64,000 nt of DNA, from contig NC_089732.1 of NCBI RefSeq assembly GCF_035083965.1, positions 6,573,383 through 6,637,382 of the forward strand, read 5' to 3'. The position numbers and the translations under genes were made by a program. This document shows positions 17,401 to 61,067 of the stretch, piece after piece (within the stretch, counting starts at the first letter, position 1; each line of letters opens with the position of its first letter). Source of the DNA: Branchiostoma lanceolatum (Eukaryota > Chordata > Leptocardii > Amphioxiformes > Branchiostomatidae). The notes under the pieces were generated by a model that saw nothing but the letters and a program-made list of their open reading frames with translations, did no database searches and was not told the origin of the DNA.

Positions 17401-18135
17401 GCAGTGAGTGTGGGCGTAACTAACGCATAACGTTACATGGCAACCATACCATCGCGAGCTCGCCGCAATCTCCGCGGTGTTAAGTGTGCTGCCCACCCGC
17501 CCAGGATTTTTTACGGGGCTGATTTCAATCACATCGATCAGGAAGTAGCCTGGATGCCAGACCCCCAAACTCTTAGATATCTACACGATAGATATTTTAG
17601 AGTTTGGGGGTCTGGCATCCAGGCTAATCAGGAAGGGGCGGCGATAAATGTCTCTAGAAGGCTAGCCACTGGCTACTAGAAGACTAGCCTGAGTACCAGC
17701 CTCCGTAGTGACCGCTGGCTGAAAAAAAATCGCTTGCTTCTCGGACTATCGTGGTCTATGTTTAGCAGATTGGGCCCGATAAAACACCCCTAAGCCGACC
17801 CGTGGTGACCAGGCTAACCTGAACTCCTTGAGTTGATGTCTCCAGGAGTACCAGCACTCCGGGAAGCCGTGCAGACACAGCATGAGCGGCTTGTCCCTCT
17901 CCCCCGCCGCCACATAGTGGAACCTCAGCCCGCTGCTCTCCAGCCGCACGTACCCGTGTGTGCCCAGGTCCGGGTCGTCCAGACACTTGGGGCGGTCCGG
18001 GCGAACTTTGTAGCCGAAGAACGCGCGGGGCCCGCGCCTGATAGCACTCAAAGTCATGGTAACGAGCATTATGGAGCCGTAGAAACTTGCGACGAGCCAC
18101 ACCATCGCAGATTGGATCATACGTGCCAGAGACAT
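14474..18135 (-). CDS. EPHX4-like: Epoxide hydrolase EPHX3/EPHX4-type alpha/beta-hydrolase, copy B
   Basis: This is a tandem paralogue of copy A with the same predicted role, a membrane-anchored epoxide hydrolase. Minus-strand exons are 18135-17819, 16632-16260, 15617-15497 and 14718-14474, giving 351 residues. Exons 2 and 3 have exactly the lengths of copy A (373 and 121 nt), and intron phases are identical. The start is the ATG at 18135 ([11 protein letters not shown]), followed by a hydrophobic anchor of different sequence from copy A. The catalytic set is intact: HGFP, D163 in HDWGG, D303 in [10 protein letters not shown]331 in ASHWVQQ, and Y210 and Y275 in the cap. The stop TAA overlaps an AATAAA. 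Parts of exon 1 and exon 4 are nearly identical to copy A at the DNA level, while exons 2 and 3 and the introns differ. The first intron's donor (AG|GTTAGCC) abuts a TAGCCT-type repeat end. Confidence 0.95.
15174..15391. repeat. Foldback repeat with internal tagcgtagagcg tandem units
   Basis: The ends atgagggcctgtatg and catgcaggccctcat are inverted. Between them a unit of about 30-37 bp built on gaatttagcgtagagcgt is repeated five or six times with variants (ttttacgtagagcg, tttagcgtagagca). It lies in intron 3 of epoxide hydrolase B and has no coding potential. An 84-residue frame through it merely reflects the repeats. Confidence 0.6.
16984..17013. repeat. 30-bp palindrome, CAAGGAGG hairpin family
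   Basis: caaggaggtttt and aaaacctccttg are perfect inverted arms around a 6-base loop (atatag). Sister palindromes lie at 21580-21611 and 46436-46465, and a half copy is at about 19603. The family may be a very small mobile hairpin. Confidence 0.65.
17546..17625. mobile_element. 80-bp Mutator-like hairpin MITE (TSD atcaggaag)
   Basis: The arms tagcctggatgccagacccc and ggggtctggcatccaggcta are fully complementary and continue inward through aaactct/agagttt. Exact 9-bp duplications atcaggaag flank it at 17537-17545 and 17626-17634. It is in intron 1 of epoxide hydrolase B, close to exon 1. Confidence 0.85.
17695..17816. mobile_element. TAGCCT-ended repeat abutting the exon 1 splice donor of copy B
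   Basis: It begins tagcctgagtaccagcctcc and ends gtggtgaccaggcta, two bases from the 5' splice site of epoxide hydrolase B exon 1 (donor GT at 17818-17817 on the minus strand). Ends resemble the 9-bp-TSD family, but the flanks (ctagaagac and acctgaact) do not match. It may be a rearranged copy. Confidence 0.45.
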
Positions 18136-18879
18136 CTTTCGAGAGCTGCCACTGCTGTAATTAGTGTAAACTTCTCGGGAAGAGAAAAGGAACGCTACCC
18201 AGCAATGACCCTACAATGACCCCAAGATGGCGACGCGATACCGCCCAAGGTTACGTCATCTCCAAGCAGATGTTTGGAGGGAAGATCGTTATGTTTCTGA
18301 ATAATGCTTGCTTGCTTGCTTGAATCAAGGAGTATAACCGAAGACTGTGCTATAATATTTTGCATTTCGTGCCGCAATTGTCTCAAAATGTGCAACTTTT
18401 CAACATTTTCGGCCTTCTTTTGAGACAATTTTGCTGTAGTGACCGTCGACCGTGCGGTCAGGAGCTGAACCATCGACCGTGCGGTCAGGAGCTGCACCCG
18501 TGCGGTCAGGAGCACTTATACGGGGGTGCATAAAGCCTAGCAATAAAAGAACTGTTGTGTTTTCGGTTATGGTCGTGAAACAAATTAGGGCAGGCAGATA
18601 GGGATTCTCTTATTTTTAAGCTTTTTTCTTCTTCAGATTTTGGCTAAAGTGATTCAACAAATCAACAATAACATTACAATTCAGCAATGTTAAACTGAAA
18701 TGCATCAGGAAGCAGTATTTTTAACACCAAAGTGTAATTATACAGACATACATTGCACAGGCAAATGTACATCAATAAACTGAACAAAGAAGTGCAATGT
18801 TTGCTGCACATTCTTACACCAACTGTTCAAAATCCTAAATTGATAACTTGTTAAGAGTAAGAAACATGATGATAATAGT
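18136..18879. other. Upstream region of epoxide hydrolase B
   Basis: This is the presumed promoter region of copy B. It contains a tctccaagcagatgt half-MITE at about 18259, a (cttg)n run at 18307-18322, and three copies of ccgtgcggtcaggagc between 18441 and 18513. No TATA box is obvious. Confidence 0.35.
18441..18513. repeat. Short tandem repeat, three copies of gaccgtgcggtcaggagctg-like unit
   Basis: The units gaccgtgcggtcaggagctg, gaccgtgcggtcaggagctg and ccgtgcggtcaggagcac follow one another. The gaccgtgcggtc core of the first two is itself a palindrome. The array lies about 300 bp upstream of the copy B start codon, in a position where it could affect the promoter. Confidence 0.6.
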
Positions 18880-19594
18880 TAGCCTCCGATGCAGACTCCT
18901 CCCGGCTGTTTTCTTTTTCAAGTTACAGTTTTTATACTATTACATTATGCCCACATCGATTTAAAAGATAGTTTTGTCTCGCCAACATTGCTGACCCCGA
19001 CGTGTGTGTTATTTTTTTTAGCTGGAAATGTAACTCTCGTAACAAACCAGGCGTGTGCCGGGTCCATTCAGTCAATTGTTCCTCGCGTACGTGTAAATTA
19101 CCCTTGCGCGAACATGTGAATTGCCCTTGCGCAAACATGTGAATTGCCCTTGCGCGAACATGTGAATTGCCCTTGCGCGAACATGTTAATAGCCTCTCTG
19201 AAAGACTTTTTTAATCTTCTTTCCTTTGAGACGCCGAGTGGACGCAGTGTCCTTCCCGGCCAGCAATAAGAAAAAAAATTTAATAGTAATAATCTAATAG
19301 TATAAAAACTGTAACTTGAAAAAGAAAACAGCCGGGAGGAGTCTGCATCGGGCCAGCAATAAGAAAAAAAATTTAATAGTATAAAAACTGTAACTTGAAA
19401 AAGAAAACAGCCGGGAGGAGTCTGCATCGGGCCAGCAATAAGAAAAAAAATTTAATAGTATAAAAACTGTAACTTGAAAAAGAAAACAGCCGAGAGGAGT
19501 CTGCATCGGGCCAGCAATAAGAAAAAAAATTTAATAGTATAAAAACTGTAACTTGAAAAAGAAAACAGCCGGGAGGAGTCTGCATCGGAGGCTA
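18880..19594. mobile_element. Foldback element with tandemly repeated terminal inverted repeat
   Basis: The left end (tagcctccgatgcagactcc, continuing about 60 bp) is the reverse complement of the right end (ggagtctgcatcggaggcta). On the right the terminal repeat is amplified into about four 79-bp units (unit starts 19345, 19424, 19503, 19582). A 23-bp repeat (ttgcgcgaacatgtgaattg plus ccc) fills 19083-19191. Flanks gataatagt and gataataac agree at 7 of 9 bases, a possible 9-bp duplication. The end sequence and spacing suggest kinship with the TAGCCT MITEs. No transposase is present. Confidence 0.7.
19083..19191. repeat. 23-bp tandem repeat inside the foldback element
   Basis: About five units of ttgcgcgaacatgtgaattg plus ccc; the first and last are diverged. 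Each unit carries the palindrome acatgt. Confidence 0.75.
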
Positions 19595-19732
19595 GATAAT
19601 AACAAGGAGGTTAAATATACAAGGAGAACCATAGGCTGTAGGCCTCGGAAGGAGTGTCTATATATATACCGAATATATACCGGGGTATCGGGTGATAGGC
19701 TGGGCGGATCCCGAACTTACCCGAAAGCCGAC

Positions 19733-19836
19733 CTCGTCCGAAGTGCGCCCGAAGGGCGCTCGTAGGTGGGCGCCCGAAGGGCGCCCCATGGCGCCGCAGG
19801 CGCCAAGCGAGTTCCTCGCGTAAGCGAGGAATGAGC
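19733..19836. repeat. G+C-rich cluster of four short palindromes
   Basis: Successive hairpins are visible: gcgcccgaagggcgc, gggcgcccgaagggcgcccc, tggcgccgcaggcgcca and cctcgcgtaagcgagg. All have 6-8-bp stems and 3-4-base loops. The cluster is sharply different in composition from its surroundings and lies between the foldback element and the C2H2 gene. Function is unknown. Confidence 0.6.
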
Positions 19837-20781
19837 GATAGGTACGAAACCTCATTTCAAACAACCTAATTTTCAGCTAATTCCTTCGACTCAGGCACTT
19901 GGCTTGGTGGTGATTCTCATGTTTGGTGTCCTATTTACCCATGGAAAACACCTAGTTGATAAAAAAACGATCACAAAGGACGATACGAGGCATTCTGTAA
20001 CGCCCAAAAATCCTTCTTTTCCCGACATGACCGTTACCGGCAGTATGCACGGCACCGCTGTTCACGGAACAATGAGATCATGGCCGGCAGATTGGACCGG
20101 GCCGGTGTCATGCACGCAAGGGGTTTCGACACCGCTATTAACTAAGCTATCATTATGATAAGCGTTGGAAATGCCAGGATTGTGAACATAGATATCTTAT
20201 TCATCATATATTTGTCTACCAGCATTGTACATGCGTTCCTATTTGCTTCTTACGTACTCACTAGATATTGTAATTCTAGCCAGATTTACCAGCTAAAATC
20301 AGACGATAAACGTGCTACGTATCTTCAGTGTAACACATCTTTTGTGAGCATCCTGTTACTTTGTTACGTTGAAAAATGGGGACTGCAATGTACAGTAATA
20401 GGTCCGGATTGGCCCCCGAAAGATCGAAGACACCCCTTCTGGTAACGGTGACCAGGAGTGCGGTTTTCGTACCCTTAGATATTTTGAAGTTAGCTCCTCC
20501 GAGCGGCTGTCTCACATTGGACGACGGGGGGCCGTCGGGAGTATTTGCATAACTATGGGGTAGGATGTCTTACGCAACTGCTCAGCGGGGAAAACAAACT
20601 CGCTATTGTTTTGAGTCCGCGGAGCTGAGGCCTACTGCCCATGGGAGAACGGACGCAATTTGCCTTCTTTCAGGAGAGTGCGTTTCAGGCGTGAAGTAAC
20701 AACTTCGCGTCAAGGTGCTAATTGCCCCCAATTTGCATTACGCGCGCTGGCGTGGGTCTTTGTTCACGGTCATTTTTCAAG

Positions 20782-21736
20782 ATGGCTCGACCGGGAGATG
20801 ACGATTTTGAGTGGGGTGACTTTGATTTCAGCGATTTCAGCGATTTCGAGGACGATTTTAATGAAATTGAGCATGAAGAATCGTCTAGCGATAGCGACAA
20901 TCCAACGGAGGAAGCAAATACAACCCCCATTGCCGCCAGCGGCCAAGGAAAATACGCGTGCGACGAGTGCAGTAAGACGTACAAGACGGCTGGATGGCTC
21001 AGCCGACACAAGGCCAAGGATCACGCAAAACCAAGTGAGTCGATGACTTTTAATAACTCCATGTGTAAAATTTGGACCAATAAGATCAGAACGTAGTTTA
21101 TTTTTGTAGTTTTGACGGCCTTGTTTATGTTCCTTTACTCCGAGCGGCGTCCGAGCCGGGCGGTGGGAGGGGGGCATTTTCGCTACAATCAGAGGTTAAA
21201 AACTTGTTAAAAACTACAATTTAGATACGAAATCGGTCGTGATCATTTCTTATATGCATATGGAGTATACGAAAATTCACAAATCTAAGATCAAATTTGC
21301 AATAGTGTCTGGAATTGTTGTACGGAATCAAGGACGAATATTTGAAACTGAACTATTGTCTGGGCTCTTTTCGTTTACTGTTTTCTCCACAAAAAAGTAC
21401 AGCAATTTGTAGTGCTTTCATCTCATGTTTGTACTTTCTATACCTGTTTGAATACATCCATATTGTACAGTTCCTACCTGCCAGTTGAGCTTGTCATAAA
21501 AATAAACGTTTCTCCTCTCAGCTGATGCACCACAGCCAGGAACAGCCAGCACAAGTGATGGCCAGGGCACAGCAGCATCCAAGGAGGTTAAATATACATT
21601 TAACCTCCTTGATAATAATGATGATTACAGAGTGTGGCATTCTGCAAAGTATTTTTGGAATTTATATAGTCACTTGGCTGTAAATCAAGATCAAAAATGT
21701 TATGTCCCTTGCCAGCGGCTGACCAAAAAAGGCTAG
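20782..21736 (+). CDS. Small acidic single C2H2 zinc-finger protein (2 exons; 3' end uncertain)
   Basis: Exon 1 (20782-21034) starts at the ATG after ttcaag and encodes a strongly acidic N-terminus, with repeats of DFSDFSDFEDDF and an ESSSDSD stretch. A single C2H2 finger follows (C60, C63, H76, H81; spacing C-X2-C-X12-H-X4-H). The donor is gtgagt at phase 1. The acceptor at 21520-21521 (tctcctctcag) continues the frame with DAPQPGTASTSDGQGTAASK. Reading on gives a stop at 21734-21736 and a 155-residue product, but the last third crosses the palindrome at 21580-21611. The true exon may therefore end earlier and splice onward. The upstream region is CpG-rich, as expected of a promoter. Nuclear nucleic-acid or protein binding is inferred from the finger only; I do not recognise an orthologue. 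Confidence 0.6.
21580..21611. repeat. 32-bp palindrome, CAAGGAGG family, in exon 2 of the C2H2 gene
   Basis: caaggaggttaaat and atttaacctccttg are perfect arms around atac. If the second exon reads through, the palindrome is translated and adds KEVKYTFNLLDN to the protein. Confidence 0.65.
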
Positions 21737-23325
21737 GGTCGACAGATTTTTGCTAGGGCCGGTCAGGTGACTGGAAACATAATAGTCTTTTCCTAGGCCT
21801 AATGATCTGAAAGAAACAAATGGCACACTGATTTTTGTACTTTCACCACAGTATATATTGCAAGTCATGATGAACATACATGAAGATATTGTACACAAAC
21901 AGGTTCATGGATATGACACTGGCAGTTGAAAGACATTTACATTAAAAACTTGACAAAAGACACTAAAATTAAATGTACATATGTTTATAGATACAAGTAT
22001 GTGTGATATACAGTGTGACTTGCAATATCTTGATAGCTACACTTGAAAAATATCTATTTCTCCACTTTCTTCAACTAGCTCACTTAGTGGTGCGGATCGG
22101 TCCGGCCGGACCGGTTCCGGACTTGTAAAACGTTTAGGTTCAAGTCCAAAAAAACCTAAACGTCTGGAAACAAGTCCGGACTTGAAAAAAAATTCTCTCA
22201 CTCATATTCTCCTTTTTGTTTTAAACCATCTTAAACCTTCCTTAAATCGTGAAATTTGCACTAGAAAAATATTAAAACATTGCTGTTTTTGTGTTTATAA
22301 CTGAACTTTTGTGTTAATTACTGACTGTATGTAATTCCGTATATATAGTTTTCAAATTACATGTAAAATATCTGCCAATATGCAATTTTACATGAAACAC
22401 AAAAAAATATTCCAAAATTATTGTTCAGGTCCGGACTTTCAAGTCCGGACCTGAACCTAAAACTCTGGACTCGAGTCCGAACCTAAACCTAAACTCGGGT
22501 TTAGATCCACACCACTAAGCTCACTATTGGGTTACATACTGAAGAAAACATACAAGTTGCCAAGTCTTCCACATTCATTCTATGGCCTAAAAATATCCTA
22601 GGTAAGGATTTGAGGCTTTTTTGGGGGTAACTTCTGCATTAAGTACTTTTGTACTGAACAACTCTATAACTTGAAGTTCTACACTGAATGAAAATACACT
22701 TTGCAGCAACTGGTATCTGACATTGCACCCTGCATATGAGTATATCTATTAGGTATCTTAAATGTTCACATAACAGTACGACTTTGGATAGTACGTAATA
22801 TGTAATACCGTAGATATTGCCACAATTTCTTGTCTGCTCCTGCCAAACTAGCAAGGGCTGTTTGTTCAGTATAGTAGTCAAAACAGCAGCCTAACTTGGT
22901 TGGTAGAAGTTGTAAAAGGTAGAAGTTGTGAAAACATTACTTTCTTCCACTAGCCACCCCTTTCCTTATCCTTGCACATAGGAATTTTGTTTTATTTAGG
23001 CGAGAGGCAGTGTTAGATGATACTTAAGCTAATGAAGTATCAAAGGTAGGAAATGTGCAGTAATGTCACATCATTGTGGGGAAGTTGGACACCATGTCAG
23101 TGCAACAAAGTCCCTTTCCACACTTAGCAAGGTTGCTTTCTGCATAAAACCTCTCAACTAGTATCGTGCACCAGTTTGCGCACTCTACATTTGCATATCC
23201 ATTTATAAACTACTCGTTCAATAACGTTCTACGTTACTTTCAAAATAAAACTACATGTACCAACAAAAAACTGCTATCAAGACCAGATTGCTCCTTCCTT
23301 CCACAGGACAACGGTCTGACGGTTT
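21737..23325. other. Convergent intergenic region between the C2H2 and trihelix genes
   Basis: A TIR element fills 22084-22518. TTTATT at 22991-22996 (AATAAA on the minus strand), about 330 bp beyond the trihelix stop codon, is a candidate polyadenylation signal for that gene. Nothing else coding was seen. Confidence 0.4.
22084..22518. mobile_element. TIR element (ttagtggtgcggatc ends, gctcac TSD)
   Basis: The ends ttagtggtgcggatc and gatccacaccactaa are inverted with one mismatch, and gctcac flanks both sides (22078-22083, 22519-22524). The interior is full of tccggac, gtccgga and aggttcaagtcc motifs in both orientations. Related text is seen at about 26965-27060 and 40535-40565. It has no coding capacity. 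Confidence 0.6.
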
Positions 23326-26300
23326 TTACAACTGCTCAAGCACCTCTCGCACTTCACTGTACATCTGTAAAGCAAAAGAATAACCAGTAAATTAAATACA
23401 AAATGTATCTTAAGTACTCTCAAGGTTAAATAAAGGTTGAAAAAAAAAAAAATCTTGTTGACAAATTCTTACGATGGCATAAACTATAGAAATTCCAATG
23501 TACAGTCTTATAAATCCAAAGTCTGATTTGTCATTGTTAACTTCTACTAAAAACGATATGCTAAATTTGTATATATATTATGTATTGTAACACAGATATC
23601 AGCAACACTAGCTGACCTGATAGTTTGTGAAAAGGAATGTCCGCGACACGTAAAGTTTACGCTGTTCGTTGTCATGGCGCCACAGGTGGATCATGTGACC
23701 TGGAGAGGGTACAGGGAGAAAAAGTCACCTCTACTCATATTTTCATGACAATGTCTACCTCTGCCAAGCAACATCTTTGATGCAGTTACTTCTTGGGAAA
23801 AAAGGAAACTTCCTTTGTGTACACACCTGTTTCTGTCCTGACATAAGCTCCAGCCTCATTCCCGACAAAGGCTAAGCCCTCGGAGAAGCTGATCTGTTCG
23901 ATGTTTGAAGCGTTGACCAGTACTTCGTGTTGGAGGGCCTGGTACAGAGTTTCTCCACGTGGCTGCCAGCTCTCGGACTGGAACACACAACCCGCTGCTT
24001 TCAAAGAAAAGAACCTCCTCCCTGTATATAGAGGGAAGGCATCACTGACTCAGTATACCAGTACATGTACCCTGCTTCAAGTGCTTGTGTTATTCCAAAA
24101 TGATGGTTCTTGAGAGAGACCCTTTACAAATAACAAGTTAGTAATAGTAGGCACATAGCATGATATATATATATTCCTGTAAAGCACTGCTGCTAAGCTG
24201 AGGTTTTGGTAAACAGCAAAGATAAAGAAATAAAAAAAACATAATTATTGTTATTCTTTGTTTAGGGAGAATTGACTTTTTTGTTTGTTGTTTTGGATAT
24301 TCTAGCAGGATACTGTAAATGTAGAAATGTTCGCAGTGGTTTTATGTTCGCAGTTTTCGCATTTCACCGCCAACTTAAAGCCACCACAAACATTTTTGTC
24401 CAATTTTGTAGCAGTATGTGACTATAGCGCTGCCGCAAACACTCCAGTTTCGCGTTAGCGTGAAATAAAAACCACACAAACTTAAATGCATTCACACAGA
24501 AAAAATCCCAAACCTGGCACTATTTTTGCAGCTGAGAACTTTGGGCGTGGGCTGATCATCTCACAGTTCCCTCCTTCAGAGTCAGACTCTGAGTCCTCCA
24601 TCCGAGGTCGCTTTACTCCCACCCCGTTCATCATGGCCATGTTTCCATTCGGCAGTGACGGTTGGAAGGGACTATTTCCTGCCAAAAGAAATGTTATCTT
24701 GAACAAAAAAGCTCTGCACCTGTGAAAGTCTCTGTCCAGTTACTTTCTACTGCTAGCATCATATCTTTATAAAAAAGACTACCATTCAGTTCTGAGACAG
24801 GTAGAAGGAACTTCAACTTAAAGGAAGAGAGGAGCAGGGAAGCAAGGTACATGTGGCATGAAAGATATAGGTACGATGAAAAGCTAAGCAATTAAAGGTT
24901 GTTTTATATACCTTGACTGTCTTTTAGTCACAAGAAATAAGACATGGGAGGTCATTCAGTACTAAGGAAGGGTTTAGGGAAGTATTTCAGCACTAAGGAC
25001 AGGTCTTTCAGCACTTGCAAAGGTTCTCCAGCACTAAGAACATGGGGTAAATAGAAAGAAATCTCCCAGACAAAGGAGGAATGACTGGGTAGTCTTTCTG
25101 TACCTTTCTCAGTACATAATGTATCACGAAGAAGTTGTTTGGTTTGTTTAGTCACAGACTCCAAAGGCATATAACTGCTCAGTATGCTGTCCAGTTCATC
25201 GTAAAATCTGCACATAGCCCGCCGTCTCCTGTCATCCGTGGACGTCCGCTTTGCTTTCCTGTATTCCTTCGCCAGACTCTTGCACTCGTCCTGTATTTGT
25301 TTCACAGTCCTCGAGTAGCCACGTTCTTGCATCATTCCTTGAATGTTCTGGAAGATCTCTCTGTTGTGCTTGGTTTTGTGAATGTTGTCCTGGATGTTCT
25401 TCTGTCCCCAGATTGCTAGGAGGGCCTTTGTCTCGGTGCCAACCCAGGCACGATGGCACTGTCCTGGATTGTTAGGACAAGCCTCGTCAGCTGACATACC
25501 GGTGTATGCTGGCATTGTGAGGGGGCTGCAGTCATCAGTACTGCCATGTGGACTAGGTTGTTCTGCCTCCTCGTTATTTCTGACCACCGTTGTAACACTG
25601 ACGGGGTATGGAGAACCAGGGCTTTCATCTGAAGAAAGGTGAAAAAAAGTACACTGATAAGTTTTCAATGTACACAAGATTATTGATGTGCTACAATTCT
25701 TAAACTTTAAAGTCAAAGATTTTACTTCACAAGTCAGGGATCGAAATACTGGCGTGGGACAGGTGCGTGTGCACTATTGCAGCATAGAATATTTAAGCTG
25801 TGCAACTAATTGTTGACTGTGGATGCACCTGAATATTTGTGTAGAACTAGTACACTACAAAAAAAAAATTGACTCTTGAGACCTAATGACTTGGAACAAA
25901 GAGGAACACAGTGGGACCCCCTACCGTTCAAATCTTCCATCTCTGGCACAGAAGCTTGAGTCGACTCCTGTCCTGACGGCGAACTGTCCATCTCGTGTCC
26001 TATGATGCTGTCAAGTTTGTCGTAAAATCGGAACCGCCGACGCTTGTTGTCTCCTCCAGTGCGCCTTGCTCTCCGGTAGTCCACGCTGAGGTTCTTGCAC
26101 TTCTCGTGGATCTGTTTCGCCGAACGGTTGTACCCGAGAGCTCTCATCATCACTTCGATCTCCTGGTAGACTGGTTTATTGTGATGTAGTGACTTGAGCA
26201 GGATCTGAAAGTGGTCCCTACCCCAGATGTTAAGGAGATCGAACGTTTCAGCATCTGTCCAGCGTACTGAGTATGTGTACGATGGTGAATCCGAGAATCG

Positions 26301-27743
26301 ACCATCCTCAGATCTTGTGCACGATAACATTTCACTCTCTGGTGGTGTAGCAGAACCATGACTATAATCTGTGGATATAACATGGAACAATTAAATTACA
26401 TATATAGCAACATATTGAAAATTTTCAAACAAACAAAAAAGTACCACTCCAATGTAAAATAAGTTATAATCACTTTGAAATATCCTGCACTTAAACTTTA
26501 GTTAAAGGCACCCAGCTGAGCATTCTATGGGAGTATGGGGCACGAAACTCGAATTAAAAAAACTTCTAGTCATTTCTACACCTAATAGATTTCAATAACA
26601 CTATACCATTACATATTGACATTCAAGGAGCAAAGATGTGATGTTGAGAACTGATAGAAAATCCAAGCGTTCTGTTTCGGTCTCGAATAGGTCGATCTTG
26701 TCAAATTTATAGCAGTTAAACAAAGGTGAACAAAGTACAAATATGTTTTTCTATTTTGTTTGATAAAAAGTGTTTTGAGTCTCCCCTCTGACGAAAAAGG
26801 CATTTAAAATAAGTGCAACATTCAAATAAAACGTGAAATGATTCAAATATCAAACACAGGTTTATCTTGAAAGTCTTCTCACCAAGAAACTTTCATAGTC
26901 GTGTGTGTCAGTATCAATTCTCTATGCTTAATATTGGTCTAATGAAACAAAACGTCAACTGGACAGGATCAGGTCCAGGTTCAGGTCCGCACCTGAACCT
27001 AAATCTTTGGACCTAAAGGCTAAACTTGGACCTTATTAAGCCGAACCGGTATCCACCCCTACTCCAAGCAGATCTCCAGGGGGGCAAACTCGTATCAGAC
27101 AGCCAGAGAAGATCCAGTCAGCCAGAGAAGCTCCAGCCAGTGTATTAGCCAGCCCGGCTGATACGATCTTACCCCCGTGGACTGTGGAGATTTGAAAAAC
27201 AATTAAATCGATAAAAACGAAAATATTGTTTACTACTATTAACACGTTACCTTCGGGTTGGTCCTCCTCTGCCGATGTTGCAGATTCAACAGTCTTCTCG
27301 CCCTGGCGTTCTGCTGGTGAGGTTGAAGTCTCCGGCCGCTGTCCGAGGATCCTGTCCAGCTCGTTATAGAACTTGAGGAGGCGTCTGCTGGTGCATGACA
27401 CGCCTTGCCTCTTGGCCCTCCTATAATCCGTGCTGAGATTCTTACACTTGTCGTGTATCTGCATAGCGGTTCGGTTGTACCCAAACGCCGCCATTCGGGC
27501 CCGGATACCTTCGTAAATCCCTCGGTTGTGTTTGGTTGTGCGTAGATCATCCTGAATGCTCTTCTCGCCCCAGATTTCCAGCAGCTTTCGGGTTTCATCG
27601 ACCCCCCATACATTACGGGGGCCTTTCCATTCCGACTCGGATCCGTCCATGAAATTTGCGTCGTTCTGGTCTTCGTAGTTCGCGCCAATGACGTCAGTGT
27701 TTTCCTGAGAGGTCTGTGGTTCTGTTTTTACACGGGTCTCCAT
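23326..27743 (-). CDS. Triple trihelix (Myb/SANT-like) DNA-binding domain protein
   Basis: Predicted nuclear DNA-binding protein. Minus-strand exons are 27743-27251, 26368-25925, 25628-25104, 24678-24514, 24021-23827, 23699-23617 and 23364-23326, giving 647 residues. Exons 1, 2 and 3 each encode one trihelix domain, at about residues 45-134, 199-288 and 373-462. Each domain repeats the pattern W-ET-LL-IWG...GY-R---QI-(D/E)KCK-L--(D/E)YR-A-R...FY--LD-I. Related Myb/SANT-like domains occur in ZSCAN20/ZSCAN29 and MSANTD proteins. Introns 1-5 are all phase 1, so the domain exons are symmetrical and could be duplicated without a frame change. Exon 4 has a probable nuclear signal (KRPRMEDSESDSE). 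The C-terminal exons (QALQHEVLVNASNIEQISF, then HMIHLWRHDNEQRKLYVS and a final MYSEVREVLEQL) belong to no family I recognise. The last two exons were found by splice-site logic and phase fit and are a little less certain. Confidence 0.85.
24313..24492. mobile_element. MITE, ctgtaaatg family, in a trihelix gene intron
   Basis: The left end ctgtaaatgtagaaatgttc is preceded by TA. The interior has cagtggttttatgttcgc and complementary aaaaccacacaaac. The right end is decayed near aaatgcatt. It stops about 20 bp from the splice donor of exon 4. Confidence 0.5.
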
Positions 27744-28248
27744 CGTTTGGATCAGTTTTTGGACAAACCAAATGCATCTAGATTCGGCAATAGGTTGGAA
27801 ACACAATGCGCTTTGCACAAAGCCCCAAGCGAGTCGATCCGATTACAAAGTGGGCCTCCAGAATCCGGTTAAAGGTCATTCGACTATTCCATCTCGTTAT
27901 CATTAGGGGTGTCAGTAAAACTTATAAGGCAATTTACCTGAGACGACCAAGTTTTAGTAAAGTTTTATTCATATGATTATCATTTGGAAGCAAGAATGAT
28001 ACTGCAACAAGTATACAGGATAGCATGTAAATATGGAATATGCACAAGAGTAGACGATAATGAATATCATGCAGATGACAGGATCTGGACACACAAAAAT
28101 GAGTATAGTTGGTAGAAGGGAAAAGTACAATAGATGGTAGAGTAGAGTTGAGTTTTAAGGTCAGGTAGGATGTTCTTCCATCCTAAAATGTAGTCATGAA
28201 TAGAATATGACAGGATTGCATTGAATATATAAATCTGGATCACTATTT

Positions 28249-28537
28249 CACCCCGACCAATCGAATCACGTGAATCGCATTGAAACTCAGATTCGTATCA
28301 GCCATTTCCCGACAAATTCCTTTCTAACTTGCGTTAACGACTACATCTGACAAAATAAACAAGCCAGTGAGATGGTGGAGGGCGTCAGCTTTCCAAAGAT
28401 GTTTTCAGATTGACAATTTTGGCACTTTGGAAGTGATTGAAATGACCGCGATTTAACGTTTAGAAAAAATTCCTTTTCTCTAAACATTAAATCGTAAGAG
28501 TTTCAATGCGATTCACGTGACTCGATTGGTCGGGGTG
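28249..28537. mobile_element. MITE with 40-bp inverted ends and possible tattt TSD
   Basis: The ends caccccgaccaatcgaatca and tgactcgattggtcggggtg are inverted. Pairing continues with a single mismatch to about 40 bp (gaatcgcattgaaactc versus gagtttcaatgcgattc). The flanks tattt (28244-28248) and tattt (28538-28542) are identical. It contains a cacgtg E-box-like motif in each arm. Confidence 0.75.
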
Positions 28538-28745
28538 TATTTGAATTCATCCCGAAAATCATATCCCACTTCTTACAGGGTATAATCATTTACACTCACT
28601 CCCCTTGAACTGTAATATCTAGAAATGCATACAGCCTAGTTGGTGAGATTATTACAATGGTAGCGAGCCTAAAAACACTCAGTAACCCAAGCCTAAACTG
28701 GCACCCAGGCTACAGTGTTGTTTCTATCTAGTTGTTGTTTTTTAC

Positions 28746-28941
28746 TAGCCTCTACCAGGCTCCGTGGGATGGCTGGAAAAATAGTAGAAATTGGCCTAAT
28801 AGAGTGAATAGTGTGCCAAGGGAGTAAGCTACGGAGAGAGAAATGGAACCTTACTGTATAGCGGACCTACCCTGTATAGCGGAGTACCTCGGCTGATTTC
28901 TACTATTTTCCCAACGATAGGACGGAGCCTGGTAGAGGCTA
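28746..28941. mobile_element. Mutator-like MITE (TSD gttttttac)
   Basis: The ends tagcctctaccaggctccg and cggagcctggtagaggcta are fully complementary. Exact 9-bp duplications gttttttac lie at 28737-28745 and 28942-28950. The inner motifs aatagtagaaat and gatttctactatt continue the pairing. Relatives are at 42669-42854 and 44472-44672. Confidence 0.9.
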
Positions 28942-30192
28942 GTTTTTTACATCCAGCTCCAGATGCTGATAATCAGATATGTAGGTTCTCTGAATATTGG
29001 GACATCATACCCAGTTTAGTATTAGATTCTTAACATTATAATACCTGTTTGGGTCATCACCCAGACCTTTGTACTTCCGTTTATTTGCATAGTCCAGTTG
29101 TGATCTTTCAGACAGACCGAGCATACTGTTACTTAGTAAAATACAGGAGAATCATTGAATAGAATACTATACTATTACCTTAAAGCACCAAAACTATCTG
29201 GTCAGTAGGCCTCTATCGTTAATACCTACCTGTTGTACACTGCATAACTTTTGGCCACACACAGATTACAGGCAGCAGATATCCTTGATATCAAATGGAC
29301 GTTTTCTTGGTCACCAACTCACAGCTGTGTCCAACCAAAACCATGTAGTTCAATCTGACAAAAGAAAATGGTTTTGCTGTAGCAATACTTTCATCGAGAA
29401 TAATTAACTCCAGTTTACTTCCTGCCTCTTTTCACTGCAGCTGTTTACTTCCCAACGCAACGGTCATAATTAGGGATTAATCTCCAGGCAGATCTTTGTA
29501 AAGACAGTACCTGACGGCCCATAGAAACTGCCTTGCCAACCAAAAGATCTGCTTCAAAATCAATTCTCGATCGTTGTACCTGACAAAAAATGCAGATTAA
29601 ACTTTGGCAAAATACAAGATAATCTGAGTTTTCAAATCACTTCCTAAACCAAGAGAGCGAGAAGAAAACTGAAGTATCCACCCACTTGCAAACATCATGT
29701 ACAATCCCTTACCACCATTTTGAAAACTCCCGCCAGGACCCGAGGAATGGGGTGGCTAAAGTTAAAATATTTATGCCTGTAGAAGACGGACTGCATATTT
29801 TTGCTTGTTTTTCTCCAAACAATAATTAGATAACACAAAATATAATTCCAAATGACTATTTATACTGATTCATCTGCTAATATGTGCTTACGTATGTAAA
29901 TATGTAGGCTGAAACTATATTCGAGACCATGGATAATCAGGCACGTATTACATTAGAAAGGAAACCCCTTGGTCTAAAGAAAGCATTTATATGCTCCAAA
30001 AACTAAATGTGTGCCTCGAAATATTCCAGAATGAAGAGATAGGAAAGAATGATATATAACTTAATATTTCTTTGAACATTTTTTTCGTCATTTTGGTGAA
30101 AGGTTATCTAACCAATGTGTGTATAATTTGTTGTTTATGATATTTTTATGTTGTTTGTATGCGGTTTACCATACAAAACCATTTTTGGCAAA

Positions 30193-33100
30193 ATGGCTGC
30201 CAGTGATACCGGCGTGTACAAGCTGAGATGTTCTCTTATCGGTCATTCTATGGACGTGCGGGCGGTCGCCGCCGCAGTCTTCCCCGACGGCGCTGTCGTG
30301 TCAGCCTCCAGAGACCAAACAGCTCGGCTCTGGGCCCCAAACAGGTACGTATATTCCGATATTGCACTGTCATCATAAGAGTTTCGGTATCCAGTCATTG
30401 TCATCGGATGGGGGAGGGGGGCAAAATAGTGGACATGCTTGTTGGTAGCCTTTCGTCACATACGATTAGTACTGTTTATATTAGCAGCTGATAAACAGCT
30501 GTTTTTAGTTTCTCTAAAGCCTCTTGGTCCAGTCCATGCCTCTGTCCAATGCTGTTGTTACTGTTAAAGAAACAATGACAAATTTGCCTGTCAATGACGT
30601 CAGTGTCAAACAATTCTCAAGGTTTAACTCTTATTTTATAAATCTTGAAAAGAAAGTCATCACAAGTATTAAGTAGACATAACGTAACCATGCTGTTTGT
30701 AAGATTGGAACTTTGAGTGAGCAAGACTGTATTTAAACTACCAAACAAACATCACAATCGCAAGGAATTCTATACATTAACAGAAACTTTACTTTTCTTG
30801 TTTTTCAGTGATGATAATGGTTTTATGGAGGCACACGTCATGACCGGACACAGTAAATTCATCTCCAGTGTTTGTCTCCTGCCGCCCTCTGATGACTATC
30901 CCCACGGGATGGTCGTAACCGGTAGCAACGACCACAGCATCCACATCTACAGCCTGGAGTCCCCAGAACCAGTCTATAAACTTACCGGACATAAGAACAC
31001 AGGTTATTTGATTGTATCATATAACAAGAAAACATAGCCAGTTTTGTACTTTTTGGTATTGCTGACCTATTTCTTGTCACTAGGTGGCGCTGTTGTAAGA
31101 AGAATGTGGTCCCAAACGAGTTTGTATCTCCCCTTGTCCTGGTTCATAACTACATGTAGAATAGATTTTCTGATCCAAATGGCCTTTTGTTTAACTTGAA
31201 GTGAAGGTACAGCAAGTTGTATCTGTTGCTCTTACTGTCTATGACCTTGGCCTTCACCCAGTTTATTTCACTGTTGCCAACTTTTACTTTCTTTAAAATC
31301 AAGAAACGTTAAGCTTAGAATATAAGACTGATATTCTACTGGAAGCTGTTTAGTCTTACATGTTAATATTCTTAAGCCCGACATTCTCATGCAAGCAAGT
31401 CTAACCCCTGCATCACGGTACGGGAAAAACAGACGATAAAACGAAGAGTGAGTGTGTGAGTGAGTGAAGCTAATTGTGGATCTAAATAAACTCAACCTCA
31501 AAAATGTGTCGTTGTCTTGTTTCAGTTTGCTCTTTAGCAGCAGGAAAGTTTGGGACCCTCCTCAGTGGTTCGTGGGACAAGACTGCGCGTGTGTGGCTGA
31601 AGGACAGGTGCATGATGACCCTGTCCGGACACGAGGCCGCGGTGTGGGCCGTCGCCATCATGCCGGAACACGGGATCATGCTGACAGGGTCCGCCGACAA
31701 GACCATCAAAATGTGGCGAACAGGGAAGTGTGAGCTGACTTTCACAGGTTGGTATCCCGCAACTGAAATTAGTGTTGATGAGAAACTATAATGTATAGCC
31801 CATACATAGATAAAACCTCTTTGGATTCTGATGTTGAATTTTGGAATTGATTTTGTTTGAATACAACAATGAAGTAAAACAAGCCCCTCGCCTGATTATA
31901 TAGGATTTTGTAGTTGATTATGTAACAATAGGTCAAATGTTTAGTACTGTTACACATTCAGGTCCATTGCTGCATGATTATGTTTCGCCAACGAAACATA
32001 TTGTTTTTGTCAGGTTTCTTCTTCTCCTTCTCCTTCTCCTTCTCCTGTCAAATCTTCAAATCGCTTCTTCTCGGTCGTCCGTCGACCAAATAAGCTGAAA
32101 TTTGGTATGCAGGTAGAGTATGTGTATACCCCTAGACCCTTTTTAAATTTTTTTGATATAAGTTTTTAAAATGATTTTATGGAGGTTTTTTGGTCATTTT
32201 CAGACAAAAGTCACACATTATGGCCTCCAGTGCTGCGGTGTTGAAACCTGAGGACCTGAAATTTGGTTTAGTTGTGCATTGGATATTTACCCAAAGGACC
32301 CCATTATTTTTTTTGGCATACACTACTTCAAAATGATTTATTTTGCAATTTTTTGATGCAATTTTGGGTTATTTTCTGTCGGGGCCAGCAAGAACTAGGT
32401 CATACTGTAACATAAGCCCTCCCACACTCACCCCTTTCTGGGACTTAAAACCAAGCAGATGTCAGGGGGTACCTATACTAATGGTATTACAGAAAGTTAT
32501 ATGTACCTTATGTTACATGGTACGGATGTTATATTTGACATGTACGTACCGTTAGCAAAGGTGATCACACCTGGCCATGAATTATGCTAATGACGACCTC
32601 ATTTGCATAATTCGTGCATAAACTTGTATTTCCCTTACCGTGACAACATGTAGGTACATGTAGGAAAGGTGAAAGCACCTGGACATAACTTATGCTCATG
32701 AGGACCTCATTTGCATAAATTATGCAGAAACTTGGATTTACCCAGGAGTTATTTTTGGACAGCCCACTTCTTGCATGAGGAGTATGGGCGAAACATCCTG
32801 AATTTGCTCTTAAAGCAAATGACGGCCAGTCTAGTTGCACTTTAAATGTTGAGGTCGAGACCGTTGAAATCCTGACCCCATTGCAGCTTCATCTAAATTT
32901 TTTTCCCCAAAGAAATCAGAACTAACGTTACTTGTTACTATGATTCACAGTTGATTTGTCACCTTTTAGGCCAACAATTTTCCCACAATTTTTTTCCAGG
33001 ACATGAAGACTGTGTGAGGAGTCTTTCTGTGGTTTCCAACGTGGAGTTTTTGTCGGCCAGCAATGATGGGTCAATCCGTCGCTGGCTAACCACAGGAGAA

Positions 33101-39484: not shown

Positions 39485-40225
39485 GAACAGAATTTAAGGA
39501 ATTTTGGCAAAAATGTATAAAGGAGATTTGGTAATGTTATGTACCTAGTTCCATAATTTACAGATCAATTCAGGATGGATATAAATCTCATATTGGCCCA
39601 GCTTCTTTTGAATCCTGTATTTTTCCTGTGTATTAAGAAAAACAAGTCAAATTTTCACATTCGTACATGTATGTATACAACTCGGTGTCAGCCAAAAACA
39701 TCCTCTGAATTCAAATGCCATTTGGATGGTTCAATGTATACAACCTTTAGAGAACTGTCTGGAATATTAAACTTTTGATGAAATACAGGGGAATTCGGAA
39801 TGACATAATATTTTATTTAAAAATTGCAGAAGTAAAGTTGTCTCCCAATATTCCTTCTCATTTCTACATATATACATACTGGTGATGTTAATTAAGAACA
39901 ATTAACTGATATAGAATCTGAAAAGGAGCTACTTGTATGTAATAGAAGGATAGTAGAATTCAGAATTGTACAAACAAAATTGGCCACTATGGGCATTCTG
40001 ACCTTAGAAAGAAATGTTATTCACGAAAATGTTGTTGAACAGGGCTATATGGCAAAAAAATACTGCTGGGTTTTTCTAAGAAATAAATGGTTATCAGAAA
40101 AATTGAGTGATTCTGTTTTTTCTTAATGAAATGATTACCTTAATCTAAATGCGGTAGCTGTACAAGCCTTAGCTATTTTTCTGCAGTGGGAAAAGTGTAT
40201 GTCACACATTCATACACACAGACAC
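39485..40225. other. PLAA 3' UTR and flank
   Basis: A+T-rich sequence with a consensus AATAAA at 40082-40087, about 600 bp beyond the stop codon. No further exon signal is visible. Confidence 0.45.
40082..40087 (+). terminator. Candidate polyadenylation signal of PLAA
   Basis: Consensus aataaa (ctaagaaataaatgg) downstream of the PLAA stop in an A+T-rich 3' UTR. No transcript data to confirm. Confidence 0.4.
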
Positions 40226-40554
40226 ATAGAGCTGTGTACCGGTACCGATACAGTACCGGGTACAATCAATTAGGTACAGGTCCAAAATACCTGAACCCTG
40301 GTGGACCGGTACTAATCGGGTCCCATTGTTTGACAGCCATACGTTCTACACTTGCGCCACACGACGCCACATTATATACTATACTCCAGCACATAAAACA
40401 CATTTGCAAGGCTCAAGTCAAATTTTCATCTGTGTTTTTATAAAAATAATACCTAGCACAATTGAATATTATGTTGTTACCAGATCAAACATGCTTTTGT
40501 ACTTATCGAAAATGTACCATTTTCTGAACCAGTAGTTTAGGTACAGGTTCAGGT

Positions 40555-40735
40555 CCGGACGTTCTGCTGCAGTACCAAGGTCACATACCAGGGGGCCCAA
40601 AATTGACCTTGGATTTTGGCTTCACAACACCCGCCCACATACCAAATATCATCGTAATCCATCATATCAAGAGGTTCTTGAGTTATGCTGTGAAACTACT
40701 GAGTCGGGAAACACACACAGACACACCCAAAACTA
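40555..40735. repeat. Dispersed repeat, left copy next to the decamer satellite
   Basis: The sequence from gttctgctgcagtaccaagg through cataccaaatatcatcgtaa to the acacacacagacacacccaa tail recurs almost unchanged at 41511-41705. The last bases, aaaactatatct, directly precede the satellite here and the catttttcatggag end in the other copy. Confidence 0.7.
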
Positions 40736-40740
40736 TATCT

Positions 40741-41120
40741 ACAAAAGTTTACAAAAGTTTACAAATGTTTACAAAAGTTTACAAATGTTTACAAAAGTTT
40801 ACAAAAGTTTACAAAAGTTTACAAAAGTTTACAAATGTTTACAAAAGTTTACAAAAGTTTACAAAAGTTTACAAAAGTTTACAAATGTTTACAAAAGTTT
40901 ACAAAAGTTTACAAATGTTTACAAAAGTTTACAAAAGTTTACAAATGTTTACAAAAGTTTACAAAAGTTTACAAATGTTTACAAAAGTTTACAAATGTTT
41001 ACAAAAGTTTACAAAAGTTTACAAAAATTTACAAAAGTTTACAAATGTTTACAAAAGTTTACTAAAGATTACAAAAGTTTACAAAAGTTTACAAAATTTT
41101 ACAAAAGTTAACAAAAGTTT
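40741..41120. repeat. Decamer satellite (acaaaagttt / acaaatgttt), about 38 units
   Basis: Thirty-eight consecutive 10-bp units, mostly acaaaagttt and acaaatgttt in an irregular mixture, with a few variants near the right end. The array contains no stop in the forward frames, so long but meaningless frames (such as repeats of KVYKSLQKFT) appear. Confidence 0.95.
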
Positions 41121-41510
41121 ATGCATTAGGAATTTATTTGCATAATTGGTATCTGTTGATGCTCCACTTTCCATGAACTACATATGTTACATGTATTTGA
41201 ATCTGATAATGGAAAACACTGCAAAAATAGATTTTCTTCATTAGCTATGCAAATTAATCCCAATCAGCATAATTTGCACATCATTGTGTATATCTCTATC
41301 TAAGCTACCTGCATACTAAATATCATGGAAATCCGTTGTTCCTTTGTTCAGTTATTCTCCTTAGAAGATTTTCACAAAAACGCCCCTGCAGTTCCAGAGG
41401 AAGCTGCTAGGGGGCCCAAACCTACACCACTTCTTTATTACATCACAAGCTATCTGCGACCCAAAAATCAAGACCACAGCACGTCCAGGTCAAAAGATAC
41501 AAACATTGCA

Positions 41511-41705
41511 GTTCTGCTGCAGTACCAAGGTCACATACCAGGGGCCCAAAAGGGACCTTGAATTTAGGCTTCACAACACCCGCCCACATACCAAATATCA
41601 TCGTAATCCATCAAGGGGCTCTTGAGTTATGCTTACTGGAGTGGTGCAGAAACACAAACAGACAGACAAACAGACAGACAGACAAACAGACACACTCAAA
41701 ACTAT
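41511..41705. repeat. Dispersed repeat, right copy, with (acag)-type microsatellite
   Basis: Second copy of the 40555-40735 repeat (gttctgctgcagtaccaagg, then tcacaacacccgcccacata). It ends in a CAGA/CAAA microsatellite (41648-41700). The microsatellite tail and conserved final aaaactatatctcc are typical of retroposon 3' ends, but I cannot name the family. Confidence 0.65.
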
Positions 41706-42323
41706 ATCTCCATTTTTCATGGAGATAAAAAGAGGTAGGGAAAATACCTTACTTACTAATAGACAATCTACGCAGTGATACAAACCTGCAAGATACTAAA
41801 GAGCTACGAAGGGCCATGGAGGACAAAGTAGTGTGGAGGAGGCTCTCTGGATTAGCGGGAGCGGGTATGTATTGACACACTAGGCTGTCAGTTTAAAAAT
41901 GAATATCATACCCAAGAAGTGCTATGCTTTGGGTCTGGAGCAGCCCTTTCTAAAATGTTAGTTTGTGGCAAGATATGATGCCTTATTCATTGCATTGGAT
42001 TTCTGCGCTACATCAGTAGGACTAGTGATGAAATATTTTTGTATGACACCAGTACAAAATAACGCAAAACATGTCACATACAAAATGCATTTTCCCGGCA
42101 AAACACCTATATGTATGTGAATTAGCAAGCAGCCTTATCTATGTGAATAAATTATGATAATGGTAGCAACCATACCATTCACCGTTGCACTGTTGAGCAG
42201 TCCAAACTCCTTAAAGTTGTTTCAAAGGAAATTGGATCCATTGATCGATAAACAGGCATAACTGGGAAACAAGTTATGCACTATAATTACCAATGTCCTG
42301 CCGTTGACTGACGACTGAGCATC

Positions 42324-42489
42324 TCATGCACTTCTTGTCTGACCACCAGTCTCCTGGACAGGCAGGGAGTCCTCATTCTCACACTCGAAGGCCTGTCCCG
42401 GGAAGGCCTCATTTCCTAAAGAACTGATGAAGAGATAACGTTTACCTTCACCAGGTAGAGCCTTGAACTGAAGCAGGATGACACTCCAG
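42324..42489 (-). CDS. Possible terminal exon of an unidentified gene
   Basis: On the minus strand a pyrimidine-rich acceptor (gttattcactcgtag) is followed by an open frame of 54 codons plus one leading base, ending at TGA (42326-42324). It contains LLQFKALPGEGKRYLFISS and NEAFPGQAFECENEDSLPVQ. The codon use and composition look protein-like, unlike the surroundings. I recognise no family and could not link it convincingly to other exons. Splice-like signals on the same strand at 44285-44300 and 44200-44220 could belong to the same gene. Confidence 0.3.
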
Positions 42490-42668
42490 CTACGAGTGAA
42501 TAACATAACAACAAAACCGTATTAGACCCGCCCCCTCCTTCTCTATCTAACGTTATACACACCACATTGTAATTAAAAAGGAAAATTAACGGTCATTATT
42601 GCTGCCGAGAAATACATGTCATGTCACCTGTCCTTGCTTCACAGCAATGCCCATGGCACGCGTAGTAT

Positions 42669-42854
42669 TAGGCTCTACCAGCCTCCGCGGGTCGCTGGGA
42701 AAATAGTAGAAATTGCCCAAATAGAGTCAATTGTATGAAGGGAGTCGGCTATGGAGAGAGGGTCAGACTGCGCCTGCGAATGTTACCCTCCATGGCCAAA
42801 GTCCCCCGGCAAATGTTCTCCCTATAGCCGGCGCGGTTAGTCTGGTAGAGACTA
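42669..42854. mobile_element. Mutator-like MITE (TSD gcgtagtat)
   Basis: It starts taggctctaccagcctccgc and ends agtctggtagagacta. Exact 9-bp duplications gcgtagtat sit at 42660-42668 and 42855-42863. The interior (aatagtagaaattgcccaaa, ggagtcggctatggagagag) is homologous to the element at 28746-28941. Confidence 0.85.
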
Positions 42855-42863
42855 GCGTAGTAT

Positions 42864-44354
42864 ACAGACTGACTACTCAGTTGGCCTCGGTGATCAGCAA
42901 AAATAATGGACGTTCACCCAGCTTTGTAACCCTTGACCCTTATTCCCAATTACATGTTTTATATTGAAATAATGTTGCAATATGAATGAATGATTTATTG
43001 CACAACAATTGCATCAGTGACAATGTATGGCAAATTACAGACAACATAGTTGTCAGTTATCGAAATCATCTACACCTGTCAATGAGGTCCTCTAGCGATT
43101 TGTATCATTTTTGCAGGTGAGGAAGTCAACCTTTTCCTGCAATGATATTTCTAACCGTAGAGGGGCGCTTTTGAACCATGTGTGTGGCAAAGCAACCTTG
43201 ATACTGATTGGTCTATTTCATTGCGACGAAAAGATATGTCCAATTAAGGAAAACACTTTTCGAATCTTTAAATGTTGTTATATTTTCATGTCATATTTGT
43301 TATATTTTCAAGGGCACATATTATTACATTCTAGAAGGAGATAACCCTGTATACAAGTACGTGGATATATCAAAGAATGTTTAGACCTTATAACTAGTAG
43401 TATAAGTGATACGTCAAGCTCAACAGGGATATCGATGTTGATTTAGGTTACTTCATTTGTCAACTAGTTTGTTTGAAGTTGAAGAAGACATTACGGAAGT
43501 CTCTGTATTTGTGCTGCGTCGATGAAAATTGTTGTTATTGAAGAGGAAGGAGAGCATTGATGAGAAGGAATATCCAGGTAAGAAAAGTTTCCTTCCTGCA
43601 GATCAACCACAGAGATGTTCCCAGAGTGACTGGGCTGTAGCTCAGCCACTTATTTTGAGACGAAAGAAGACGAAAAATTCCCGTACACGTCCGGCCAGCA
43701 AAGTAACCCCCCCCCCCCTCACCACCACCATCCGCAGCCACGCACATATGCGTGTCACTTAGGCCCAATCAACAACCAGTGAAGTCGCAAAGACACAGAC
43801 ATGTCGTAAGGTTTATCATGGCGTGAAAATATCATCTACAACCATACAAAGATAAAGCTTCTTCCTTCGAAACTATATTCTAAGCTCTGCAGTTATGCAA
43901 TAGAGAGGTCCATTGACTACAGCGGCTTCTTTCTGTCTAGTACTTAAGTGAAGCTGAGGTCTCCTACGCATGTAGTCTGAGTACATATACTTTGAAATAA
44001 ATGCACAGCTGGACACGGCTGCGCAGAATTTAGTTGTTCAATTGTCTGTGTTGAAGGATAGTCTCCATTCCTCTCCGCAAGAACGTGGGAGAAAACCCGA
44101 CCTACGTCATTTAATGACGCAGAGCACAAGGGCAGTGATACCTAAGAAGGGGTTTATAGAGGGTGTCTAGAGGAAAAAGAAGAGTGACATACATCCGAGC
44201 ATCTTCCAGCGGCTGCAAGAGAAGCATGTCAACAAAATCTTTTACTAGTAATTCTAGAAGCAACTTCTCTGCTGACTGATGAGCCCAACTTACCGTTAAA
44301 GATCGTCTGAATGATGCAGATTGAACAGGTAAACGATTTTTGCATCTCATATGA
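42864..44354. other. No gene recognised
   Basis: A 5'-UTR-like stretch ending in a good donor (tatccag|gtaagaaa at 43577) and a poly-C run at 43710-43718 are the only marks. Short minus-strand frames here show no family resemblance. Confidence 0.3.
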
Positions 44355-44451
44355 TCTCCAAGCAGATGTTGGGGTGCAAGACTGGAGCGTTTTCTGATAG
44401 TGCGTCTGTCAGAAAATGCTACAATCTTTCACCCGAAAATCTGCTTGGAGA
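44355..44451. mobile_element. MITE, tctccaagcagatgt family
   Basis: tctccaagcagatgttgggg pairs with the right end gaaaatctgcttggaga. The interior gcgttttctgatag pairs with ctgtcagaaaatgc. 97 bp hairpin. Confidence 0.65.
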
Positions 44452-44471
44452 GTGCACCTAATATTCTACAT

Positions 44472-44672
44472 TAGCCTCCACCAGGCCTTCCTACGGGGGG
44501 TACGGATCGTAGCTCTAGAATTCGGCAAACAAATGGAATAATCGGCTAGGAGAGTCAGTCCACGGGAAGGTTAACATTTCTCCCTCGGAGATATAGACGA
44601 AAATCTGTGGTGGTCAAACTCTCCTGGCAAATACTCTCCATACGGCCAGCGTTTTCAGTCTGGTAGAGACTT
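44472..44672. mobile_element. Mutator-like MITE (TSD attctacat/attccacat)
   Basis: It starts tagcctccaccaggccttcc and ends cagtctggtagagactt. The flanks attctacat (44463-44471) and attccacat (44673-44681) match at 8 of 9 positions. Its ends match those at 28746 and 42669, and it is the most diverged of that trio. Confidence 0.75.
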
Positions 44673-45065
44673 ATTCCACATCATAGCCGGCAGTGCACTA
44701 AGCGATTGGTAACATCGTGAATACCAACCAAGTAAGAGGTTAATTGCCTGTAGACCGCATGCTTACTCAAACGTCCATTAAGTAAGAAATATGCATTTAC
44801 GATTCGTAAGTGCCAATTAGATATAGCTAATGGAAATTCCTTTGGCTGCCTCATTGATGTGTGTGTTGTGAATATCAAGCCAACAATGCTTCAGTACTTT
44901 CTGTGATAGACTTTTCATTGTAGTTTTGATAAATCGTTCGAGATAGATATCTAATTATGTCGGATTCCATTGTGAGGCATATCTCCAACGATGTCTCCAA
45001 CGTTAGCTAGCTAGTTTTGGTGGGTATCGCAAACAAAGATAACTCTATCACATATTGCAATCTAT

Positions 45066-59366: not shown

Positions 59367-59549
59367 GAAATGGAACGAAATGGAACGAAATGGAACGAAA
59401 TGGAACGAAATGGAACGAAATGGAACGAAATGGAACGAAATGGAACGAAATGGAACGAAATGGAACGAAATGGAACGAAATGGAACGAAATGGAACGAAA
59501 TGGAACGACATGGAACGAAATGGAACGAAATGGAACGAAATGGAACGAA
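59367..59549. repeat. Decamer array gaaatggaac, about 18 units (left arm)
   Basis: Almost perfectly homogeneous 10-bp units with one gacatggaac variant near 59508. The frame-shifting period gives artificial repeats of NEMERNGTKW in all frames. Confidence 0.95.
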
Positions 59550-60904: not shown

Positions 60905-61067
60905 TCGTCCCATTTCGTTCCATTTCGTTCCATTTCGTTCCATTTCGTTCCATTTCGTTCCATTTCGTTCCATTTCGTTCCATGTCGTTCCATGTCGTTC
61001 CATGTCGTTCCATTTCGTTCCATTTCGTTCCATTTCGTTCCATTTCGTTCCATTTCGTTCCATTTCG
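60905..61067. repeat. Decamer array catttcgttc, about 16 units (right arm)
   Basis: Inverted counterpart of the left array. A block of three variants (catgtcgttc) lies at about 60981-61010, whereas the left array has one such variant. Confidence 0.95.

Follow-up and report, generated by a model that had tools for sequence, protein, structure and literature searches.

The 64,000-nucleotide stretch of Branchiostoma lanceolatum DNA analysed here (contig NC_089732.1, positions 6,573,383 to 6,637,382 of the forward strand; hereafter the window) contains six elements with related inverted ends, each lying between exact or imperfect direct repeats of 9 bp. That they are transposon insertions with 9-bp target site duplications (TSDs) is well supported. 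They are probably non-autonomous Mutator-like elements (MULEs; MULE/Foldback, Phantom-type), namely miniature inverted-repeat transposable elements (MITEs) and a larger foldback, mobilised in trans by a transposase whose gene lies elsewhere in the genome. Elements of this kind, MITEs and foldbacks that leave 9-bp duplications, are already known. The six are short (81–715 bp) and non-coding, with flanks that agree at 7/9 to 9/9 positions and ungapped terminal inverted repeats (TIRs) of 13–67 bp with identities from 10/13 to 66/67. The two long open reading frames (ORFs) that overlap elements (10273-10641 and 19101-19451) matched no Pfam family. This is the make-up of MITEs, and TIRs together with a TSD of this length agree with MULEs, which make TSDs of 8–11 bp according to one survey (PMC6446971). 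The elements, their duplications and their internal repeats are listed below in window coordinates.

10477..10730, forward strand: foldback MITE, 254 bp; TIR 51/54, ungapped
10468..10476 (left) and 10731-10739 (right), forward strand: TSD ACAGGAACT of the 10477 element, exact 9/9
10554-10594 and 10617-10657: 17-bp tandem repeat, 2.4 copies in each arm of the 10477 element
17546..17626, forward strand: near-perfect hairpin MITE, 81 bp; TIR 36/38; z -15.7
17537..17545 (left) and 17627-17635 (right), forward strand: TSD ATCAGGAAG of the 17546 element, exact 9/9
18880..19594, forward strand: foldback element, 715 bp; TIR 66/67; flanks GATAATAGT/GATAATAAC, 7/9
19084-19194: 23-bp minisatellite within the 18880 element
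19291-19588: 79-bp unit in 3.8 copies, ahead of the right end of the 18880 element
28746..28941, forward strand: MITE of family A, 196 bp; right end is the reverse complement of the left, 40/46
28737..28745 (left) and 28942-28950 (right), forward strand: TSD GTTTTTTAC of the 28746 element, exact 9/9
42669..42854, forward strand: MITE of family A, 186 bp; ends TAGGCTCTACCAGCCT and TAGTCTCTACCAGACT
42660..42668 (left) and 42855-42863 (right), forward strand: TSD GCGTAGTAT of the 42669 element, exact 9/9
44472..44672, forward strand: MITE of family A, 201 bp, more diverged; flanks ATTCTACAT/ATTCCACAT, 8/9; right end AAGTCTCTACCAGACT

The window was scanned without any assumption about the end letters, for an exact k-bp repeat enclosing inverted ends complementary at 9 or more of their first 10 bp, at a spacing of about 40–2500 bp and with words of more than 40 copies left out. 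At k=9 the scan returned four matches, which are exactly the elements at 10477, 17546, 28746 and 42669, and at k=10–13 there were none in the window. Shorter repeats gave 2, 7, 7 and 3 matches at k=5, 6, 7 and 8 (positions listed for k=7 and 8 alone); among the ten at k=7 and 8, three (at k=7) are known elements in a shifted register and seven lack TAGCCT ends. Forty first-order Markov shuffles produced totals of 21, 9, 2 and 1 matches at k=7, 8, 9 and 10, which puts the expectation at k=9 at about 0.05 per window against the four observed. The real window exceeds the shuffles at k=7 and 8 as well, partly through shifted-register elements and partly through other likely transposons. Among lengths of 4–13, flank mismatches fall to zero at 9 alone for each of the four exact elements. 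Membership in the hAT superfamily, which needs an 8-bp TSD, was rejected on this ground.

A preliminary description had proposed four elements with exact 9-bp flanks and inverted ends of TAGCCT or TAGGCT type, and the blind scan recovered all four; their ends are of TAGCCT, TAGGCT or TAGTCT type. For the 17546 element the inverted ends and exact flanks stand, while its right boundary moves from 17625 to 17626. The 8/9 flank match proposed for 44472-44672, the right terminus of which begins AAGTCT, was likewise found, as were the similar ends and 7/9 flanks of the foldback at 18880-19594, where the outermost ends are identical at 20/20 positions. By hand arithmetic with even base frequencies, a match of at least 7/9 is expected at a given position with a probability of about 0.001, and the true value is larger, the flank being A+T-rich; for this reason 18880-19594 is a probable rather than proven sixth member.

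Interiors were compared by local alignment after 20 bp had been cut from each end (15 pairs, 200 shuffles each). The score of 95 for 28746 with 42669 far exceeds the shuffle maximum of 39 (0/200), and that of 42 for 42669 with 44472 exceeds a maximum of 31 (0/200); 28746 with 44472 scored 32, which 2/200 shuffles reached. These three elements form one family of diverged copies, termed family A. A weak match joins 10477 to 28746 (score 33, reached by 0/200 shuffles), and this may mark 10477 as a relative of the family, either distant or mosaic. Two further pairs are weak, 10477 with 42669 (12/200 shuffles) and 18880 with 28746 (22/200), and the remaining nine are at chance level (at least 53/200). 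There are thus about three interior groups: family A (to which 10477 may be distantly related), 17546, and 18880. The earlier statement that interiors differ greatly between copies was not confirmed, three of the six being one family and 10477 weakly matching one of its members, and its suggestion of several internal families is overstated in view of these groups. Within family A the ungapped end match is 13 bp in 42669 and 44472 as against 40/46 in 28746, where one end looks as if it had been replaced by an inverted copy of the other.

The terminus shared by the elements is longer than TAGCCT. In each group it carries a dyad, AGNCT-N5/7-AGNCY, with the inner AGNCY half-site 5 or 7 bases inward. 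The inner arm is perfectly complementary in 5/9 ends and has at most one mismatch in 8/9, whereas arbitrary window positions reach these levels in 0.8% and 9.8% of cases, and other TAGCCT sites have an inner arm with at most one mismatch in 2/21 instances (17685 and 19190). The pattern, chosen post hoc after the end sequences had been seen, is present at 8/30 TAGCCT sites against 0.4 expected (60 shuffles, maximum 2); by reading, six of these sites are both ends of three elements, another is the unpaired end at 17685, and the last (19190) falls within the 18880 element. Two lone ends are of note:

17685..17704, forward strand: lone end TAGCCTGAGTACCAGCCTCC with a similar dyad
28693..28712, reverse strand: lone end beginning TAGCCTGGGTGCCAG, 14/15 like the 17546 element (by reading)

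No 9-bp-repeat partner was found within 6 kb of seven lone TAGCCT ends (28712, 17816, 9491 and 17664 on the reverse strand; 17685, 8688 and 19190 on the forward strand).

Within family A the middle pair of the dyad varies as C:G, G:C and T:A (five distinct ends). Covariation score, paired percentage and changed-cell number are each reached by 11/500 shuffles, and the other two of the five measures are not unusual (290/500 and 137/500). Since all pair counts come from a single variable pair among five distinct rows, since numbers are small and since two measures are unremarkable, compensatory change in the dyad is suggestive, not proof. Template-switch repair of quasi-palindromes could also give double changes without selection. 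A less likely reading is that the transposase reads a palindromic dyad whose symmetry rather than exact letters is selected, with several MITE groups of unrelated interior having the dyad grammar and its 5- or 7-bp spacing in common. As judged from the ends, a single recognition system for all elements is supported. The earlier proposal of one transposase behind them is backed to this extent, by the AGNCY half-site that recurs 5 or 7 bp inward (a pattern picked post hoc and absent from the preliminary description); the enzyme itself was not among the window's ORFs scanned, as detailed below.

In the mechanism that we envisage, the transposase would recognise a short bipartite terminus with imperfect palindromic symmetry (T-AGNCT-N5 or N7-AGNCY). 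It would cut at the terminal T and integrate with a 9-base stagger, which host repair would fill to leave the 9-bp direct repeat. The terminus alone would be needed, and the interior could for that reason vary, being free to drift or to be swapped. The interior may have grown as subterminal DNA was duplicated in tandem and inverted, as in 10477 and 18880 and at the right end of 28746.

We infer a MULE-type transposase acting in trans. A MULE origin fits best because the mosquito Muta elements share the 9-bp TSDs, the varied interiors and, as regards two of the elements here, the arms with tandem repeats, and because the palindromic end matches Muta1. The MULE assignment of the preliminary description accordingly remains plausible by TSD length and architecture, and lacks a transposase among the ORFs scanned. 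Several observations speak against such an origin. No transposase domain was found in a Pfam scan of 36 of the 39 window ORFs of at least 110 amino acids. No larger element with TAGCCT-type ends up to 30 kb apart appeared among 17,081 end pairs, a search that recovered the known elements except for 44472, which the filter missed because of its AAGTCT right end. The ends start with TAG or AAG, one G in three bases, to be weighed against the highly conserved G/C reported for the first three terminal positions in most arthropod MULEs, a tendency and not a defining trait (PMC13359780). Tandem repeats are listed for only 2/6 elements, 10477 (17-bp, both arms) and 18880 (79-bp, one arm). As to the terminus, the left end of 10477 carries TGGCT and not AGNCY, 17546 is a poor match to the dyad (2 mismatches), the nine ends are interdependent through the common ancestry of left and right ends and through the membership of three elements in one family, and the two unremarkable covariation measures belong here too. 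Finally, one survey reports MULE transposases as not detectable in B. floridae (PMC6446971); by its account, earlier work had reported such elements.

The elements could be real transposons of another superfamily with 9-bp TSDs, whether Merlin-type, Rehavkus proper or one so far undescribed whose ends start with TAG, and we give this perhaps one chance where the MULE reading has nearly three. It would suit the lack of a transposase among the scanned ORFs and the TAG start, atypical beside arthropod MULEs. There is, however, no positive evidence here for any of the three candidates. Merlin ends start with GG, with TSDs of 8–9 bp, which tells against a Merlin-type origin. Rehavkus has a 9-bp TSD and a minisatellite ahead of its 3' end, as in 18880-19594, but it is defined by a PHD-finger transposase, none of which was seen in the window ORFs scanned, and it is in any case counted as close kin of MULEs (PMC6446971).

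It is rather improbable that we are dealing with unrelated transposon families whose TAGCCT ends are similar by chance, with no common recognition system, even if some of them might still be MULEs. Neither 17546 nor 18880 has a clear interior in common with the others, and on its own TAGCCT shows hardly any enrichment in the window (30 sites against a shuffle mean of 23 and maximum of 34). Against this, the k=9 scan, blind to end letters, gave TAGNCT-ended elements only (4/4), and the second end motif at near-fixed spacing is in excess at TAGCCT sites, a post hoc count in which six of the eight sites are the ends of three elements. Chance inverted repeats or palindromic DNA without transposition are very unlikely, since for all the 238 inverted-repeat pairs of at least 16 nt in the window (the 25 longest listed), exact 9-bp flanks occur at four elements instead of about 0.05, flanks agree at length 9 only, and related interiors sit between differing flanks.

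The window is an animal gene neighbourhood. Pfam places a GIPC domain at about 3.3 kb and alpha/beta-hydrolase ORFs at 11 and at 16 kb; from 33 to 39 kb it finds WD40, PFU and PUL domains, in an order that we take to indicate a PLAA-like gene. ORFs at 13 and 18 kb have no Pfam match and share a long identical stretch; presumably they are first exons of epoxide-hydrolase-like copies. Three successive ORFs on the minus strand at 24952-27839 encode one Myb/SANT-like DNA-binding domain each, and the ORF at 20722-21093 (20.7 kb) has a C2H2 zinc-finger match under the Pfam cut-off.

Other repeats were also noted. A 1,734-bp foldback at 59350-61083 has ungapped 180-bp arms (174/180), composed mostly of 16–18 copies of a 10-bp unit, and is flanked on both sides by CTTTAACA (8 bp), or, with the ends shifted by one, by the 9-bp CCTTTAACA; it has the look of another Mutator/Foldback-type element, one whose ends are different. 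The sequence at 22085-22517 (ends TAGTGGTGYGGATC, exact 8-bp flanks AGCTCACT) is a hAT-like MITE candidate by TSD length, and that at 28274-28512 (ends ATCGCATTGAAACTC, exact 8-bp flanks TCACGTGA) a short element candidate. Tandem repeats of about 108–127 bp at 12053-12482 and 32538-32739 have a TTATGCTAATGAGGAC-like core common to both distant places. At 40740-41121 a 10-bp tandem repeat of 38 copies leaves three forward frames open, with much the same repeating peptide in each.

The terminus TAGNCT-N5/7-AGNCY together with the 9-bp duplication makes a precise query for an autonomous partner in the source genome, and for dating insertions. In amphioxus this bears on the existence of MULEs in basal chordates, a matter left open by one survey (PMC6446971). 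If the dyad-symmetry reading were true, it would point to an unrecognised Mutator-type transposase in amphioxus, and a compensatory dyad, if borne out by further copies, would hint at the way in which the transposase binds its ends.

A literature search by names and end sequences gave no description of a TAGCCT-ended family, only an amphioxus paper with a passing mention and an unrelated trout paper, and a search with the window's other repeat strings found nothing. For lancelets at least 40 autonomous transposon superfamilies are reported, and the main text of the paper concerned names neither MuDR nor Mutator (PMC4284660). Exact 18- or 19-base end sequences had 0 matches each in viral and prokaryotic contig collections, which say little on animal DNA. 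A comparable group is LanceleTn, reportedly from work of Osborne et al. in 2006, which comprises MITEs of amphioxus.

Among described systems, the Tm1 Mutator/Foldback elements of Meloidogyne are similar in their mostly 9-bp TSDs, composite foldback TIRs of variable length and MITE-like short class; they differ in their terminal motifs, in having two ends unlike each other, and in the Phantom-like transposase predicted in Tm1 (PMC3169594). The Muta1–14 MULEs of Aedes aegypti make TSDs of 8–9 bp, and 10/14 families have subterminal tandem repeats (PMC5225508). Their TIRs exceed 100 bp in 12/14 families as against 13–67 bp here, the 10-bp imperfect palindromic terminal motif of Muta1 is shorter than the dyad of 15–17 bp, and autonomous copies are known in Ae. 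aegypti while none was found in this window (PMC5225508). Non-autonomous Muta derivatives nevertheless have ends in common and foreign interiors (PMC5225508), and the present elements resemble the Muta group in the 9-bp TSD, the palindromic end (Muta1), the subterminal tandem repeats (10477 and 18880) and shared ends with differing interiors.

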